From the NCBI GenBank assembly GCA_036511855.1, contig DATCBN010000006.1:1-37079 (forward strand): 37,079 bases of DNA, written 5' to 3'. Both the position numbers and the translations under genes were made by a program. Position 1 is the stretch's first letter; each line of letters opens with the position of its first letter. The DNA is from Candidatus Eremiobacteraceae bacterium. Lineage in GTDB: Bacteria > Vulcanimicrobiota > Vulcanimicrobiia > Eremiobacterales > Eremiobacteraceae. Shown here one piece after another: positions 1 through 36,743 of the stretch. Below the pieces are notes generated by a model. The model was not told where the DNA came from. It did no database searches and worked only from the letters and a program-made list of their open reading frames with translations.

Positions 1-939
1 GCCATCGCCGCCGCACTCACCGCCGTGTCGTGGTCCATATTAGCGCAACCCGTACTAGGGCAAGCATCGCTTGCCCATCCAAACACAACCATTGGCACCT
101 GCAAGATCTTTCCGAACAAAGACCCGTGGAATACCGACATCTCGCAGTACCCGGTGGATCCGCATTCCGCCGACTATCTTGCGAACATGAACTCGGCGAT
201 GCACGTGCATCCTGACTTCGGTTCGAATCCCACATATGGCATCCCGTGGATCACGGTGCCCGGATCGCAGCGCTTCTTGCCGATCTCGTTTGACGATCCA
301 CAAGAGAGCAACGCGGGCCCGTATCCATTCCCGGCGAACGTGCCGATCGAAAACGGGGATCGCCACGCGATCGTCATCGACAAAGGCACCTGCACGCTCT
401 ACGAGACGTACAGCACCGTCTACCTCGGACCGCCGCAGTCGAAAGGGTTCCACGCGTATTCGGGAGCGGTCTTCGATTTGCACGTACGAAATCCGCAACG
501 CACCGACGGCTGGACGTCGGGCGACGCGGCCGGCCTTGCCATTCTTCCGGGCCTTGTGAAGAAATCTGAAGCCGACACGGGCGTCATCGGCCATGCGTTC
601 CGGTTCACGATGGGAAGCACCCAGGCGGCGTTCATCCATCCCGCGCAGCATTGCACGTCGGGATTTCCCCACGGTCAATATCCGTACTACCCGCCGATGG
701 GCCTTCGCTTGCGCCTCAAAGCCGGCTACGATCTCTCGCAATTCACGGGTGACGCGCTCGCGATCGCCGTCGCGCTTAAGAAATACGGAATGCTGCTCGC
801 CGACAACGGGTCCGACTGGTACATCACCGGCGAGACGAACACGAGCTGGGATGACGACAATCTCGACCAGCTGAAGAATATTCCAGGCAACGCCTTTGAA
901 GTGGTTCAGACCGGCCCGGTCATCACCGGCTTTTGTTGA
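1..939 (+). CDS. Conserved extracellular protein, N-terminus cut by window edge
   Basis: The frame is open from base 1, so the true start lies upstream; a GTG at 25 is possible but would cut a hydrophobic stretch (A-I-A-A-A-L-T-A-V) that looks like the core of a signal peptide. The mature part begins near CKIFPNKDPWN. It contains PWNTDISQYPVDP, a GIPW segment, GPYPFP, DRHAIVID, DGWTSGDAAGLAILPGLV, PPMGLRLRLKAGYD and a C-terminal YGMLLADNGSDWYITG. I recognise this motif series from uncharacterised secreted proteins of actinobacteria and soil metagenomes, but know no function. A perfect palindromic repeat (58-76) encodes GQASLAH exactly between the signal peptide and the mature domain. It is convergent with the next gene, one base apart. 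Family assignment is from memory; function unknown. Confidence 0.75.
   Translation, partial: AIAAALTAVSWSILAQPVLGQASLAHPNTTIGTCKIFPNKDPWNTDISQYPVDPHSADYLANMNSAMHVHPDFGSNPTYGIPWITVPGSQRFLPISFDDPQESNAGPYPFPANVPIENGDRHAIVIDKGTCTLYETYSTVYLGPPQSKGFHAYSGAVFDLHVRNPQRTDGWTSGDAAGLAILPGLVKKSEADTGVIGHAFRFTMGSTQAAFIHPAQHCTSGFPHGQYPYYPPMGLRLRLKAGYDLSQFTGDALAIAVALKKYGMLLADNGSDWYITGETNTSWDDDNLDQLKNIPGNAFEVVQTGPVITGFC
58..76. repeat. Palindromic REP-like element, copy 1 (inside a CDS)
   Basis: Arms GGGCAAGC and GCTTGCCC with loop ATC, preceded by CGTACTA. It is the same unit as at 14875, 14959, 15774 and 30254. It lies in frame inside the first gene, near the expected signal peptidase site. Confidence 0.8.
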
Positions 940-14370: not shown

Positions 14371-14457
14371 ATTAAACGTGAAAGCACGACGTGTTTGACG
14401 GAATGATGAACCGTCCGCAGCCGCCGAAACGTATAGCACTTGAAAGGAGACGCCCAC

Positions 14458-14859
14458 ATGTCCGATTCTCGCAACCCGATGCGCGCCGCGCTCGCCGCGA
14501 CGGCGATCGTCGCCGCTGTACTGACCTTCGCGGTCACCGGTCGCACCGATCCAATGAGTCAGGCCACCGCCACCCCAGGGCCCACGGCCGCGCCGGTCGC
14601 CGTGAAAATAACCAACTTCGCGTTTTCACCGCAAAAGGTCGTCATTCCGGTCGGCGGGTCGGTGACATGGACCAACAACGACGACGTCGCTCACACGGCC
14701 ACCGCAACCGACAGCAGCTTCGATTCCGGAAATTTGGCCAATGGCCAATCGTGGACCAAGACGTTTACCAAGGCCGGAAAATACTCGTACATCTGCACGT
14801 ATCATCCTAATATGACCGGCACGATCATCGTACAGGCGCCGGCTTCGCCGTCTCCGTAG
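14458..14859 (+). CDS. Amicyanin/plastocyanin-like cupredoxin, exported
   Basis: 133 residues from the ATG at 14458, preceded by AAAGGAG. An N-terminal hydrophobic segment (AALAATAIVAAVLTFAV) is a signal peptide or anchor, followed by a Pro/Ala/Thr linker. The domain starts VKITNFAFSPQKVVIPVGG and contains WTNNDDVAHTAT and YICTYHPNM. His79, Cys113, His116 and Met119 form a complete type 1 copper site with spacing C-x2-H-x2-M, as in amicyanins. It is expected to carry electrons outside the cytoplasmic membrane. A terminator follows at 14899. Confidence 0.9.
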   Translation: MSDSRNPMRAALAATAIVAAVLTFAVTGRTDPMSQATATPGPTAAPVAVKITNFAFSPQKVVIPVGGSVTWTNNDDVAHTATATDSSFDSGNLANGQSWTKTFTKAGKYSYICTYHPNMTGTIIVQAPASPSP

Positions 14860-14867
14860 CGCGGCTT

Positions 14868-14914
14868 GTAGGAAGGCAAGCATCGCTTGCCCATCTGTGG
14901 GGCCGACCTTTATG
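14868..14914 (+). repeat. Composite repeat, copy A (palindrome plus second hairpin)
   Basis: 47 bases that match 30248-30294 with one mismatch. It contains the palindrome GGCAAGC-ATC-GCTTGCC (14875-14891), a spacer ATCTGT, and the 5' arm and loop of a second hairpin (GGGGCCGACC, TTTAT). Identity with the other copy stops inside the second hairpin, yet a complementary 3' arm is present in both copies. Confidence 0.85.
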
Positions 14915-14936
14915 GTTGGCCTCGCGTTTTTTATTT
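14899..14936 (+). terminator. Rho-independent terminator after cupredoxin gene
   Basis: Stem GGGGCCGACC with GGTTGGCCTC (G-T wobbles), loop TTTAT, followed by GCG and a T-rich tract (TTTTTTATTT). It lies 39 bases after the cupredoxin stop and is built partly from the repeat. Confidence 0.7.
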
Positions 14937-14958
14937 GCGCCACCGGCTTCTCGTACTA

Positions 14959-14977
14959 GGGTGAGCATCGCTCACCC
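14959..14977. repeat. Palindromic REP-like element, covariant copy
   Basis: Arms GGGTGAGC and GCTCACCC, loop ATC, preceded by CGTACTA as in copy 1. Two positions differ from the GGGCAAGC type and both are compensated in the opposite arm. Confidence 0.8.
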
Positions 14978-15016: not shown

Positions 15017-17179
15017 CTAGAACGACCACGCGCGCAACGTTTGCGTCAAGTGCCACGCTCCGCCGTTATCGCGCTGCCACCGCTCGGTATCGCCATGACC
15101 GCGCAGCGGCGCCGACCACACGGATCGCACAACCACCAAAAAATCGCCGTCGATCGACGCAGTCACGACGCCTAGCGGGAGCGGTTGCGCGCCGAACTCT
15201 GCTTGCCACACACGCTCGCCCGCCAGAGAGCGTATCGTTGCGGAACTCGCGAAGTTCTTGGCGCCCGAAATATTGGTGGCCAATGCCGGGAGCCGATCGC
15301 CCGTTGACGATTCAAGCTCGCGTACGGTTTTTTCTAGCATCGCCGGATCGCCGAGCGACTCCGTCGCCGACGTGCCTGAATCGCCGGCGGCCCGAACCCG
15401 GGTATATGCATTTAATCCCGCACCGTCCATCGCGAATAACGCCGTCGCATCGAGCCGGAATGCGGACAACGCGCCTTGGTCTGCCTGCGAGCGACCCGGT
15501 GTCGCGCCCCACACCAAATAAGTTCCCGACGACAACCGTGCGAAAAACATCTGCTCGCCATCGTACGAACCGCCGGTCGGATAGCTTACCGGACTTGATT
15601 CATCGCCAAGCGCGGCAATGCAGATCATCGACGTGCCGCGCCACGATTTAGTGAGTGCAACCCAGAGGCCCGATTGATCGGCACCGACCGCGCCGGGTGA
15701 GCCGTCCAAGGCGTATCGAACGTGCCAGTGCGAGCCGTCGCCTGAAGCCCAAAGGGTTGCAACGGTAGGGCCGGGGCGAGCGATGCTCGCCCTAGTACTT
15801 AGAACGCCCGCACTTAGAACGCCCGTACTTGGAACGCCCGCACTTGGAACGCCCGCACTTGAAGTACTCACCGGGGAGGCGCCCCAAAGAGTGCCGTCAT
15901 CGGAGCGCGTGAGCACTGCGAATGGGAAAACGGGTGGTTGCGCTATCGTGAACACCGCGTTCGAATCGCCGCGATACACGCGTCCGAGATACGACGCGAT
16001 CCATCCCGAGTTCGAACCTTGCCCTGCTGGATACACCCGCCACTGAAGCAACGCCGAATCGAGCGCGCCGGCGTCAGGCTGAAGCGGCGGCCATAAAGCG
16101 GCCTGACCGTCGTGAGCGGACGATGCAAGCGATGACAGCAGGCGCTTCGGGTCGCTATATCCCGGCGGCATACGCATTTGCAGGGTCACGAACCGGCCGC
16201 CGCGCCGCACGGTGAGCAGTAGGTTCTCCGGCCACGCGAGAAAGAGCCCGCCGTCGTCGAGCGCTCCCAAACCGTCGCCGACGGAGTACGCAGGATCGTC
16301 GGGCATCGGCGGATAGAAATACGAGACCAAGTCGTGCGTCGCCGCGACGACGCGCGTCAACCCGTGCGAGAACGCGAAGTATGCAGTGCCATCGCGATAC
16401 GCGCCTTGATATACCGTGCTCGCAAGCGGATGAATGGCGACGAGCTGCCGTCCAAATGCATCGTCGAATCGCGGCGCGAGCGCGTCAGACGCACCGGCTC
16501 TATCCATCGTGGCAGATCCATTCGCGTGCGAATCGACCCACGCCAGATTCTCGCCCAGCAGTGCGAATCGTCCGCCCGGTGCTACGCCCGTCACCCGCAA
16601 CCGTCGCGCGCCGATCTCGCGGGCCACGAAGCGGCCGTCGCTTTGACGATACACCGTCAATCGATCGGAGGTCTCGGGAGAAACCGCAGTCAGGTCGCCG
16701 CGCACCGATTGATCGGTCGAAAACCGGAATGTCGAGGGTGCGGGGACACGCGCTTGCGACACATTCACATCTACTAGATCGTCGCCGTCGCGGAACTCGA
16801 TGGAGTCGGATCCCGTCCAGCGCACGCTTCGCACCACGCCATCGATGCTCAGCTGCGTGAGTCTGAGTCGCGGTACATCGAGCAAGAACGCTTGCGTAGG
16901 ATCCATTCGTTGCGGATCGCCGAAGACGGCGCTCCCAGGAAACACCACGACGAAGACCGCGCGCGTTCCGCTCGCGTCGAACGCTGCGTCTCCCACGATC
17001 GCACCGGGCGCGAGGCCGAGCGGCAGCGCATATAGATGAAGATAGGCGCCGCCCGCAAGCCGGAGCGTCGTCTGCGGCGAAAGCACTGCCGCCCAGGCTG
17101 CGCCGCTGCCGGCAAGTGTAAGAGTAGTTGCGACGAGCGCAACGCAAACCGCCCGTAGTTGGCCGCTGCCGGGATTCAT
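15017..17179 (-). CDS. Large secreted protein of unknown function, probable propeller
   Basis: 720 residues with a signal peptide (VALVATTLTLAGSGAAWAAV). No family recognised. Many short strand-turn patterns (WVDSHANG, YRDGTAYFAFSHG, GGLFLAWPENLLLTVRRGG, DGTLWGASPV, SHWHVRYALDGSPG) suggest one or more beta-propellers. Near residues 440-470 there is a low-complexity insert of five-residue repeats (SAGVP / STGVL) followed by TRASIARPGP. At the DNA level this insert is four 15-base tandem repeats plus a copy of the palindromic element, so the coding sequence has absorbed repeat DNA. It is divergent from the MOSC gene. Function unknown. Confidence 0.75.
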   Translation of the reverse strand: MNPGSGQLRAVCVALVATTLTLAGSGAAWAAVLSPQTTLRLAGGAYLHLYALPLGLAPGAIVGDAAFDASGTRAVFVVVFPGSAVFGDPQRMDPTQAFLLDVPRLRLTQLSIDGVVRSVRWTGSDSIEFRDGDDLVDVNVSQARVPAPSTFRFSTDQSVRGDLTAVSPETSDRLTVYRQSDGRFVAREIGARRLRVTGVAPGGRFALLGENLAWVDSHANGSATMDRAGASDALAPRFDDAFGRQLVAIHPLASTVYQGAYRDGTAYFAFSHGLTRVVAATHDLVSYFYPPMPDDPAYSVGDGLGALDDGGLFLAWPENLLLTVRRGGRFVTLQMRMPPGYSDPKRLLSSLASSAHDGQAALWPPLQPDAGALDSALLQWRVYPAGQGSNSGWIASYLGRVYRGDSNAVFTIAQPPVFPFAVLTRSDDGTLWGASPVSTSSAGVPSAGVPSTGVLSAGVLSTRASIARPGPTVATLWASGDGSHWHVRYALDGSPGAVGADQSGLWVALTKSWRGTSMICIAALGDESSPVSYPTGGSYDGEQMFFARLSSGTYLVWGATPGRSQADQGALSAFRLDATALFAMDGAGLNAYTRVRAAGDSGTSATESLGDPAMLEKTVRELESSTGDRLPALATNISGAKNFASSATIRSLAGERVWQAEFGAQPLPLGVVTASIDGDFLVVVRSVWSAPLRGHGDTERWQRDNGGAWHLTQTLRAWSF
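15774..15792. repeat. Palindromic REP-like element inside a CDS, reverse orientation
   Basis: On the minus strand: GTACTA, then GGGCGAGC-ATC-GCTCGCCC. It encodes RASIARP in the large secreted protein, a different reading frame of the element from that used in the first gene. The arms covary again relative to the other copies. Confidence 0.8.
15797..15860 (-). repeat. 15-base tandem repeat (4 copies plus 4 bases)
   Basis: Units ACTTAGAACGCCCGC, ACTTAGAACGCCCGT, then ACTTGGAACGCCCGC twice, ending in a partial ACTT. Being a multiple of three, it adds five residues per unit without breaking the host frame. It begins four bases from the palindrome. Confidence 0.9.
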
Positions 17180-29551: not shown

Positions 29552-29795
29552 GCGTCTCCTCCCGCCGGCCCGGACTGGCGCAGTTAGTGAAGCGATCGTA
29601 CGGAATATGTCTCGAATCAATAAATGAATTTTGAGTTCGAATTGTCGATCATTAAGAGTTAATTCAATATCCTCGGACGCTAGCCGGACGGTCCCATGAT
29701 AGCGTTGACTCAGGAGTCAGCCGGCGGATCCACGCGTTCGCGCAATGGAATCGAAGGCAAGCTCCATCCACCAACTAAGAAAGGTAAGGCAGCTC
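29552..29795. other. Divergent intergenic region with small palindrome
   Basis: AT-richer than its flanks and without a gene. It must hold the promoters of the DUF5916 gene and the secreted protein at 29796. A short inverted repeat TGACTC-AG-GAGTCA (29706-29719) is the only operator-like feature I see; no convincing -35/-10 pair. Confidence 0.3.
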
Positions 29796-30221
29796 ATGTC
29801 AATTCGGATTAAGAGTTTGGGATTCGTCGGCTCTGCTTTGTTGGCCGTCGGCGCCACCATGGCGATGCAGGCGTCACCGACTCTTGCAGCCCAACCGGCC
29901 GTCTACGCTCGGCCCACGATCATCAACGCGGGTCCCGCTCGCGTCATGCCGGACTCGCAAGTCCCGTGCGGCGTACAATTCACGTTCACGTTGAACCCGA
30001 ATCAAACAGCGCAATTCTTCACATTTGGCTGGGATCCGGCCAATTTCATACAGTGGACCGTTATGAACGATACCAACAATTCGAGCGGTCCTATCGTGTC
30101 CCTCACAAACGTCGCCACGCAGCGCACATCCTCGACCGCTGTGACCTATTGGCTGACGGTCCAAAACCTGACGGCGTCAAGCCAGAACATCGAAGGACGA
30201 TTCTGCACGATGCATCGCTAA
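29796..30221 (+). CDS. 141-residue secreted protein, paralogue A
   Basis: ATG at 29796 preceded by AAGGTAAGG. Signal peptide VGSALLAVGATMAMQASPTLAA. The mature domain of about 95 residues contains VPCGVQFTFTLNPNQTAQFF, WTVMNDTNNSSGP, VSLTNVATQRTSSTAVTYWL and ends NIEGRFCTMHR; the two Cys could form a disulfide tying both ends. The pattern suggests a small beta-sandwich. It is nearly identical in layout to the gene at 31053, so the pair arose by duplication. No family recognised. A composite repeat follows the gene. Confidence 0.75.
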   Translation: MSIRIKSLGFVGSALLAVGATMAMQASPTLAAQPAVYARPTIINAGPARVMPDSQVPCGVQFTFTLNPNQTAQFFTFGWDPANFIQWTVMNDTNNSSGPIVSLTNVATQRTSSTAVTYWLTVQNLTASSQNIEGRFCTMHR

Positions 30222-30247
30222 ACGACCAACACTGCAAGGCCGACCCT

Positions 30248-30304
30248 GTAGGAGGGCAAGCATCGCTTGCCCATCTGTGGGGCCGACCTTTATGCGGGGT
30301 CGGC
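30248..30304 (+). repeat. Composite repeat, copy B, with terminator-like hairpin
   Basis: Bases 30248-30294 match copy A at 14868 with one mismatch. Palindrome GGGCAAGC-ATC-GCTTGCCC (30254-30272), spacer ATCTGT, then a second hairpin with arms GCCGACC (30282) and GGTCGGC (30298-30304). It lies just after paralogue A and could end its transcript, although no T-tract follows. Confidence 0.82.
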
Positions 30305-34104: not shown

Positions 34105-34725
34105 GTGACAAATTCGCCCGGCCAACTGCCTAAAGTGGGCGAAAAGCGCGGCATCGGGTACGTTGAGTTGGGTCTGCAGAACTATGCAGAGCATGAGCGT
34201 GTCCGTTACAGTTTTCAGGGCGGAAATGACGGGTCGGATCCAACGGGCAACCTCATTGCAGATTCGAGCGGCGCTCTCTACGGCACGACGGCCGACGGCA
34301 ACGCCTTGGGATACGGTATCGTGTTCAAACTTACGCCATCGGGATCCGGCTACGTCGAGAGTATCCTTTACGCTTTCGGGGGTGGAACCGACGGCCAACG
34401 TCCGATGGCGGGTCTGATCGCCGATTCGACTGGCGCGCTGTACGGCACGACCTATGTGGGCGGCAACGGCCTTCCATTATGCGGCACCAGTATTGGCTGC
34501 GGTACTGTATTCAAGCTCACGCCATCTGGGAACAGCTACACAGAAAGTATTCTTTATCGCTTTCAATACAATCCCCCCGGGCCAGGAGTTTGGGATGGCG
34601 CATTTCCCTATTCCGGCGTGGTTGCCGATGCAAGTGGCGCACTGTTCGGCACAACGTACGGCGGCACACAATCAACGCGGCGAACAGCAAGAGCCAGAGA
34701 TTGGCGAGATACGCCAAAGCAATAG
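34105..34725 (+). pseudogene. Truncated GloVer-repeat gene
   Basis: The frame holds about two and a half GloVer repeats: YSFQGGNDGSDPTGNLIADS, SGALYGTTADG, FKLTPSGSGYVESILYAFGG, ALYGTTYVGGNG and ALFGTTYGGT. It has no signal peptide, and its first 35 codons do not look like a repeat. After GTTYGGT (about 34668) the sequence switches to the opposite-strand PDZ gene and the reading becomes basic and meaningless (STRRTARARDW). So both ends are decayed. The intact relative lies at 1767-2996. Confidence 0.7.
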
Positions 34726-35387: not shown

Positions 35388-36743
35388 CTAATGGACGACA
35401 ATCACCGTTCGCATCTTGTTCGTATTGTAGTGATACTGGCAACCGATCATGTAGAAACCGGGCGAGCCAGTCTCGTAGACGGGAGACTTTTTGCTTGGAT
35501 TAAGGCTACCGGTCGCCCATCCCGTTGTTCCGATGGCGGTACCGGCAGGCGATTGAGTTGTGGAACCGTTGAACGATCCAGGCCACGGAGCATTGTTCGC
35601 AGTCGCGTTCCCGAGGAAGGCGGCCGAGTGCGGAAGTGTGTCGACATTTTGAAACAGAACCAATTCGCCCATGTTGAGACTAATCGTTTGTGTTTGGGTC
35701 GATTGAGTGCCGACTGCGTAGCCTAGCTCGAACCCGTAGTTTGGATCGTTGAAGGAAATTTCACCGTTGAGGCGGATCCCGATGGTGGTGGTGAAAAGTT
35801 CTAACGCCACACCAGCGGCACCGCTGATTCCTGCAGTGATCGTGGGAGTGGTCTGTGTTCCATTCTTTGTGAAGGTTGTTATGCTGTTGGTGTAACTGTT
35901 CGAGACGTAGATCTTACCGTTCCCGTCGACCTTCAGGCTGTTGGGCCCGCTCAGCCCGGCAGTGATCGTGGGAGTGGTCTGTGTGCCGTTTTTCGTGTAG
36001 GTTGTCACGGTGCCGTTGGCACTGTTCGCGACGTAGATCTTGCCGTTCCCGTCGACCGCCACGTCCTGCGGCCCGCTAATCCCGACGGTGATCGTCGGAG
36101 TGGTCCGTATTCCATTCTTCGTGTAGGTTGTCACCCTGTTGCTGCTCTGGTTCGTGACGTAGATCTTGCCATTCTTATCGACCGCCACCCCGGCGGGAAC
36201 GCTCACCCCAGCGGTGATCGTTGGAGTGGTCTGTATTCCGTCCTTCGTGTAGGTTGTAACGCTGTTACTGAAATACTGCGACACGTAAATCTTGCCGGCC
36301 GCATCGACCGCCACGCCGACGGGATAACTCATCCCTGCAGTGATGGTCGGGGTGGTCGGCGTTCCATCCTTCTTATAGGTATTCACACTATAGTTTTCCG
36401 AGTTCGCGACGTAGATCTTGCCGGACAAGTCAACCGCCGCGAGGTGTGGACTATTCAGCCCAGTAATGGTCGGAGTGGTCTGTGATCCGTTGCCGGTATA
36501 CGTCGTTATGCTGCCGGTGGTATAGCTCGTGACGTAGATCCGCATGGGTCCACTTGCGGTATTGGAAATCTCGTCGAATGTTGGGGACGTTAGGCTGAAC
36601 TGCCACAGCGCCGGAGCCGGCTGGAGTGCTCCGCCACCCGCTGCCGGCTTACTCGAAATGGGGGCGATGCCACCGCTTCCGCTGCACGATGCGAGCAGAA
36701 CAACTCCCGCCAGTGCCGGCCAAAAAATCCGAAAATGTTTCAT
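35388..36743 (-). CDS. Lipoprotein: NHL-like propeller fused to a cupredoxin domain
   Basis: 451 residues, ribosome site AAAGGGA. Lipobox ALAGVVLLASCSG. From about residue 65 there are six tandem repeats of 42 residues (126 bases): xVAVDxxGKIYVxNxxxN, SVTTYTKNG, then QTTPTITAG. Their close similarity makes an NHL-like six-bladed propeller. The last 100 residues form a cupredoxin: NMGELVLFQNVDTLPHSAAF and FYMIGCQYHYNTNKM. His372, Cys435, His438 and Met444 make a complete type 1 copper site (C-x2-H-x5-M). The protein would be anchored outside the cytoplasmic membrane and could pass electrons. Base composition is lower in GC than the window average. Confidence 0.85.
   Translation of the reverse strand: MKHFRIFWPALAGVVLLASCSGSGGIAPISSKPAAGGGALQPAPALWQFSLTSPTFDEISNTASGPMRIYVTSYTTGSITTYTGNGSQTTPTITGLNSPHLAAVDLSGKIYVANSENYSVNTYKKDGTPTTPTITAGMSYPVGVAVDAAGKIYVSQYFSNSVTTYTKDGIQTTPTITAGVSVPAGVAVDKNGKIYVTNQSSNRVTTYTKNGIRTTPTITVGISGPQDVAVDGNGKIYVANSANGTVTTYTKNGTQTTPTITAGLSGPNSLKVDGNGKIYVSNSYTNSITTFTKNGTQTTPTITAGISGAAGVALELFTTTIGIRLNGEISFNDPNYGFELGYAVGTQSTQTQTISLNMGELVLFQNVDTLPHSAAFLGNATANNAPWPGSFNGSTTQSPAGTAIGTTGWATGSLNPSKKSPVYETGSPGFYMIGCQYHYNTNKMRTVIVVH

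Follow-up and report, generated by a model that had tools for sequence, protein, structure and literature searches.

A very probable RAYT-type REP family in a Candidatus Eremiobacterota genome, located mainly after gene ends and occasionally carried in frame within genes

The palindrome at positions 15774-15792 is one copy of a dispersed REP family, a repeat of the mobile type. The family very probably consists of RAYT-type REP sequences, non-autonomous elements of approximately 25 nt that lie mostly after the 3' ends of genes, with a minority inserted in frame inside genes. This assignment is based on unpaired heads, outward-paired geometry and REP-flanked genes for a REP-associated tyrosine transposase (RAYT, Y1), features by which RAYT/REP systems are defined (PMC3733652, PMC8266576). 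The window analysed is a whole contig of 37,079 bases (G000:C6) of a Candidatus Eremiobacterota genome of 3.07 Mb in 112 contigs. Its features are listed in Table 1.

The family consensus is composed of a GTAC or GTAG head followed by TA or GA and by GGGCAAGC-ATC-GCTTGCCC, and aligned copies read GTA[C/G][T/G]A-GGGCAAGC-ATC-GCTTGCCC-A. This corresponds to a head that stays unpaired, a two-base spacer, and a stem of 8 bp closed by a loop of 3 bases. Folded as single-stranded DNA, the hairpin reaches -10.2 kcal/mol (z -3.5). With no more than two mismatches, 520 strand hits are obtained in the 3.07 Mb against 1 for the reversed control, and the window contains 6 pattern matches where 0.07 are expected from shuffles. 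Five family positions were identified in the window. The two palindromes described in the initial annotation, at 58-76 (plus strand) and 15774-15792 (read on the minus strand), are indeed present, and both lie in long open frames, although in different ones (GQASLAH and RASIARP). The three others, at 14874-14892, 14959-14977 and 30254-30272, had gone unmentioned; all are intergenic and located shortly after gene ends. Among intergenic copies of the genome, GTACTA heads (116) outnumber GTAGGA heads (50). Adjacent copies in 1.39 Mb are oriented ++ (52), -- (38) or +- (27) and never -+, so that inverted pairs carry their heads outward, the geometry of REPINs and BIMEs. At up to three mismatches, the query genome gives 907 strand hits and two other genomes of the same genus give 157 and 135. 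Within its taxonomic family the REP family is limited to this genus, eleven genomes from other genera of the host family being at background (0-6 hits).

Table 1. Coordinates of the repeats and associated features in the window
Feature	Position	Strand	Remarks
Contig-start overlap, exact, 77 bases	1..77	+	identical to G000:C4:124359-124435; sequences diverge at base 78
REP copy at contig start	58..76	+	GGGCAAGCATCGCTTGCCC; upstream 57 bases from another locus (C4 permease)
Intergenic REP	14868..14892	+	GTAGGA head; 8 bases after the stop of ORF 14440-14859
Intergenic REP	14953..14977	+	GTACTA head; stem variant GGGTGAGC/GCTCACCC; located between convergent genes, ahead of the one at 15017-17179
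Host gene, 720-aa predicted exported protein	15017..17179	-	no match to Pfam or NCBIfam; conserved in the family
REP hairpin	15774..15792	-	GGGCGAGCATCGCTCGCCC; read in frame as TRASIARP within the 720-aa ORF, in the sense orientation
GTACTA head, unpaired	15793..15798	-	5' of the hairpin on the minus strand
15-nt tandem repeat, five units	15795..15869	-	encodes SAGVP/SAGVL/STGVL; abuts the REP head
Intergenic REP	30248..30272	+	GTAGGA head; ~26 bases after the stop of ORF 29745-30221

Other repeats were noticed in the window. A second REP-like family, GTGGGGCCGACCTTTATGGTYGGCC, occurs at 14900-14921 and partially at 30279-30294 (42 copies in 1.39 Mb); in the sister genome G005 (L150), the RAYT gene is surrounded by arrays of nearly identical palindromes. 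One REP of the first family and one element of the second make up a 48-base unit found at 14867-14914 and 30247-30294 (98% identical). The minus-strand ORF 35388-36743 includes six tandem units of ~126 bp at 35800-36540, 70-83% alike, and ORFs 1767-2996 and 34105-34725 have in common a protein motif that occurs repeatedly (LYGTT...GG), the DNA repeats being spaced by 162-168 bp.

The genome encodes two RAYT genes (PF01797 and NCBIfam NF047646, above cut-off), and each is flanked by REP sequences of the same family in inverted order. Those surrounding the gene on contig C109 are mostly GTAGGA-headed and those surrounding the gene on contig C4 are GTACTA-headed. The C109 gene is uninterrupted and its protein exceeds the NCBIfam cut-off for REP-associated tyrosine transposases. 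The C4 gene (G000:C4:15078-15338, L010), located between GTAC-headed REP sequences, has a frameshift ahead of the catalytic Tyr motif, reflecting either genuine decay or an error of the draft. A single-sequence search of the RAYT protein against the PDB returned no match at E 0.01. The flanked RAYT genes, together with the known biochemistry, suggest that the elements would most likely spread as single-stranded DNA through a REP-associated Y1 (HUH) transposase encoded by the genome.

The location of the copies was surveyed in 1.39 Mb (45% of the 3.07-Mb genome), sampled by stretches, with genes called using a home-made codon model. This survey includes 260 copies in 143 loci, 123 of which are intergenic at a coding fraction of 0.904. 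Convergent gaps carry 52 REP loci per 101 gaps compared to 9 per 185 for divergent gaps. In unidirectional gaps, the REP is found at a median distance of 21 nt after the upstream gene, in the sense orientation at 33 loci and antisense at 11. A TTTT stretch follows within 14 nt for 57 of 208 copies (4% at random intergenic spots). Most surviving copies are situated shortly after gene 3' ends, usually sense and often followed by a T-run, which suggests that most of them likely serve as 3'-end RNA hairpins.

Copies inside genes are in the minority. The largest insert is found in an ArsP-like permease gene (G000:C4:124029-125129; L053, L022), which carries nine in-frame REP sequences with a 42-bp spacing, the REP sequences having been masked when genes were called around this array. 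The array accounts for ~126 extra residues, absent from all 8 aligned homologues. The C-terminal linker of NrdJ contains two in-frame REP sequences and a loop of PNP one full and one partial copy, all of them missing in sister orthologues. WhiA, whose identity is supported by Pfam, exhibits three compared with its sister orthologues. As judged from these alignments, the REP sequences of NrdJ, PNP, WhiA and the permease are clean in-frame inserts with intact flanks. GpmI, CoaD and an LptA-like protein have REP-bearing N-terminal extensions, for which the start codon could be misplaced, and an aminotransferase has a REP-bearing C-terminus. As a separate observation, the NrdJ-type ribonucleotide reductase (G000:C15:47397-51965) appears to carry an intein besides its two linker REP sequences.

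All nine convincing in-gene loci are in the sense orientation and eight of them read VLGQASLA, only the copy at 15774 using the other open sense frame. Given two open sense frames, this preference is modest (8/9, p 0.02); it fits selection for a benign peptide devoid of Cys or Pro. The sense bias, counted on nine loci, may be a general feature of how copies insert or are retained, since sense copies dominate outside genes as well. The spacing of in-gene tandem copies is divisible by 3 in 13 of 13 cases, compared to 24 of 69 in intergenic arrays, a triplet spacing that within open frames is partly imposed by the reading frame itself. A minority of copies would survive in genes where the sense strand, stop-free in two frames, is inserted in a loop, a linker or a terminus. 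According to the open frames, such elements would then be read into the protein, in most cases as VLGQASLA(Q/H), and could be amplified as tandem units of 36-42 bp whose length is in every case divisible by three.

The two in-frame copies of the window had led the initial annotation to a comparison with the Rickettsia palindromic elements (RPE). The presence of a dispersed palindrome read through in frame is retained from this proposal. That the family is a true RPE analogue, adapted to protein-coding genes and supplying them with peptide segments, is nevertheless improbable. Its occurrence in unrelated conserved genes (NrdJ, PNP, WhiA, GpmI, CoaD and the permease) and its bias towards one frame and one orientation are what such an element would produce. 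However, convincing intragenic cases make up only ~9 of the 143 loci in a sequence that is 90% coding, which represents a strong avoidance of genes, and the sense bias extends outside them (33:11). Moreover, the element has the size of a REP, carries a GTAG or GTAC REP head and is linked to RAYT genes. In a related proposal, a GTAC-headed REP subfamily would be partly gene-dwelling, entering the transcribed sense strand, being retained in one preferred frame (VLGQASLA) and growing by in-frame tandem duplication in conserved enzymes and regulators (NrdJ, WhiA, GpmI, CoaD, PNP), as an independent RAYT-driven counterpart of the coding palindromes of Rickettsia. This is conceivable but rather unlikely.

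Compared with the main consensus, the copy at 15774 shows two paired changes in its stem. Eleven homologues of the 720-aa protein align well on either side of a hypervariable loop, and the REP lies inside this loop. The protein is 23 residues longer than its homologues, mostly as a result of the five 15-nt tandem units next to the REP head. The orthologue from the same-genus genome G004 carries its own full REP, TGTAATAGGGCAAGCAACGCTTGCCC, in the same loop and the same frame (RASNACP), with one paired stem change and one loop change relative to the 15774 copy; in the orthologue from G005 the loop is about as long but contains no recognisable REP. No clean empty site is therefore observed at 15774. 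The alignment with homologues put forward in the initial annotation thus gives a mixed picture: in-frame inserts with intact flanks are observed for the permease, NrdJ, PNP and WhiA but not at 15774. The shared site may represent either one old insertion that has changed since, or two insertion events at a position that tolerates them. At 15774 there is thus a REP carried in frame by a loop that tolerates it, and not a clean insertion relative to an empty site. It would correspond to the in-frame copies described above, here in a variable loop where one sister species also has a REP, and probably makes no selective difference to the protein.

The hypervariable context, the adjacent 15-nt tandem repeat and the two paired stem changes might suggest that this inverted repeat arose by chance or from constraints of the protein within a low-complexity loop, and has no relation to the dispersed family. 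This is scarcely credible given that the 15774 copy retains a GTACTA head and an ATC loop, both common to other copies, that an identical 19-mer of this copy is also present in G004 and that family matches in the window far exceed the shuffled expectation. An origin of the in-gene palindromes as assembly artefacts of a repeat-rich draft is likewise highly improbable. REP arrays may be misassembled in a draft of 112 contigs, and the first 77 bases of the window are an exact duplicate of another locus. The 15774 copy, however, lies 15.8 kb inside the contig and has a stem that differs from the consensus, a sister genome from a separate assembly carries a REP at the corresponding codon, and the frame is preserved across all 13 spacings of the in-gene arrays.

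The situation is different for the copy at 58-76. The matching C4 segment is the middle of the ArsP-like permease gene (PF03773) holding the nine-copy REP array. Homologues of the first ORF of the window are lipoproteins with another N-terminus, and similarity starts after the REP. A length of 77 is a common k-mer size. Since the 77-base match lies at the contig end and stops one base past the repeat, window positions 1-77 look like a contig-end overlap of the de Bruijn-graph type and not like a genuine gene start. Among the contig starts examined, only that of C6 shows a 77-base match to another contig. The true gene start was not found when the genome containing the window was searched with the upstream sequence of the sister gene. 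In view of the identity with C4 and of the lipoprotein-type N-termini seen in the homologues, this copy is rejected as evidence of an insertion near a signal peptide: what had been taken for a signal peptide is a piece of the permease, and the gene of the first ORF can include no more than the sequence beginning with the REP. Of the two in-frame copies attributed to genes for exported proteins, the one at 15774 is confirmed, in a predicted exported protein, while the one at 58-76 is unreliable as it lies at a contig edge. Repeat-flanked contig ends of draft genomes can thus mimic in-frame insertions, which calls for caution.

The analysis extends RAYT/REP elements, and their rare in-frame insertions in genes, to Candidatus Eremiobacterota. 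Within the collection of papers searched, none named such repeats in Eremiobacterota, and none treated GTAC together with REP-associated tyrosine transposases. The existence of conserved enzymes with fresh REP peptides and of sister orthologues without them makes neutral versus functional peptide insertion directly testable.

Among known systems, the closest are the GTAG-superfamily REP sequences and REPtrons associated with RAYT/TnpAREP, in particular the group of short perfect palindromes that includes REP-Sm of Stenotrophomonas maltophilia, with its 8-bp stem and 3-nt loop (PMC8266576). The present family shares with them an 8-bp perfect stem, a 3-nt loop, an unpaired four-base head, hundreds of copies, pairs with outward heads, REP-flanked RAYT genes and a mainly intergenic location near gene ends. 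It differs in its host, Candidatus Eremiobacterota, in a head two bases away from the stem and in the predominance of GTAC over GTAG, a variant of the GTAG/GTGG-type RAYT-REP head motif. In another system a change to a GTAC head shifts cleavage in vitro (PMC8266576). RPEs are 100-150 bp long elements of Rickettsiales, as opposed to 25 nt here, and orthologues of sister species can carry the insert at the same place (PMC3767692); RPE-4 and RPE-6 belong to the CGTC superfamily, a group lacking associated transposase genes (PMC3733652). Both are palindromic repeats found in frame in protein genes, here at other loci of the genome and not cleanly at 15774, but the frequent genic location of RPEs is not observed. 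Intragenic GTAG REP sequences were described in 2013, for example in Opitutus terrae and Thauera, as translated in many proteins, and their neutrality in loops and linkers was suggested (PMC3733652). Like those reported here, they lie wholly inside ORFs of known proteins, singly or in clusters; their larger regions span 43-82 residues, fewer than in the permease, and a uniformly sense orientation with one dominant frame distinguishes the present loci. Intragenic translated REP sequences are thus already known; the host group, the prevalence of the GTAC head and the sense, single-frame pattern are new.
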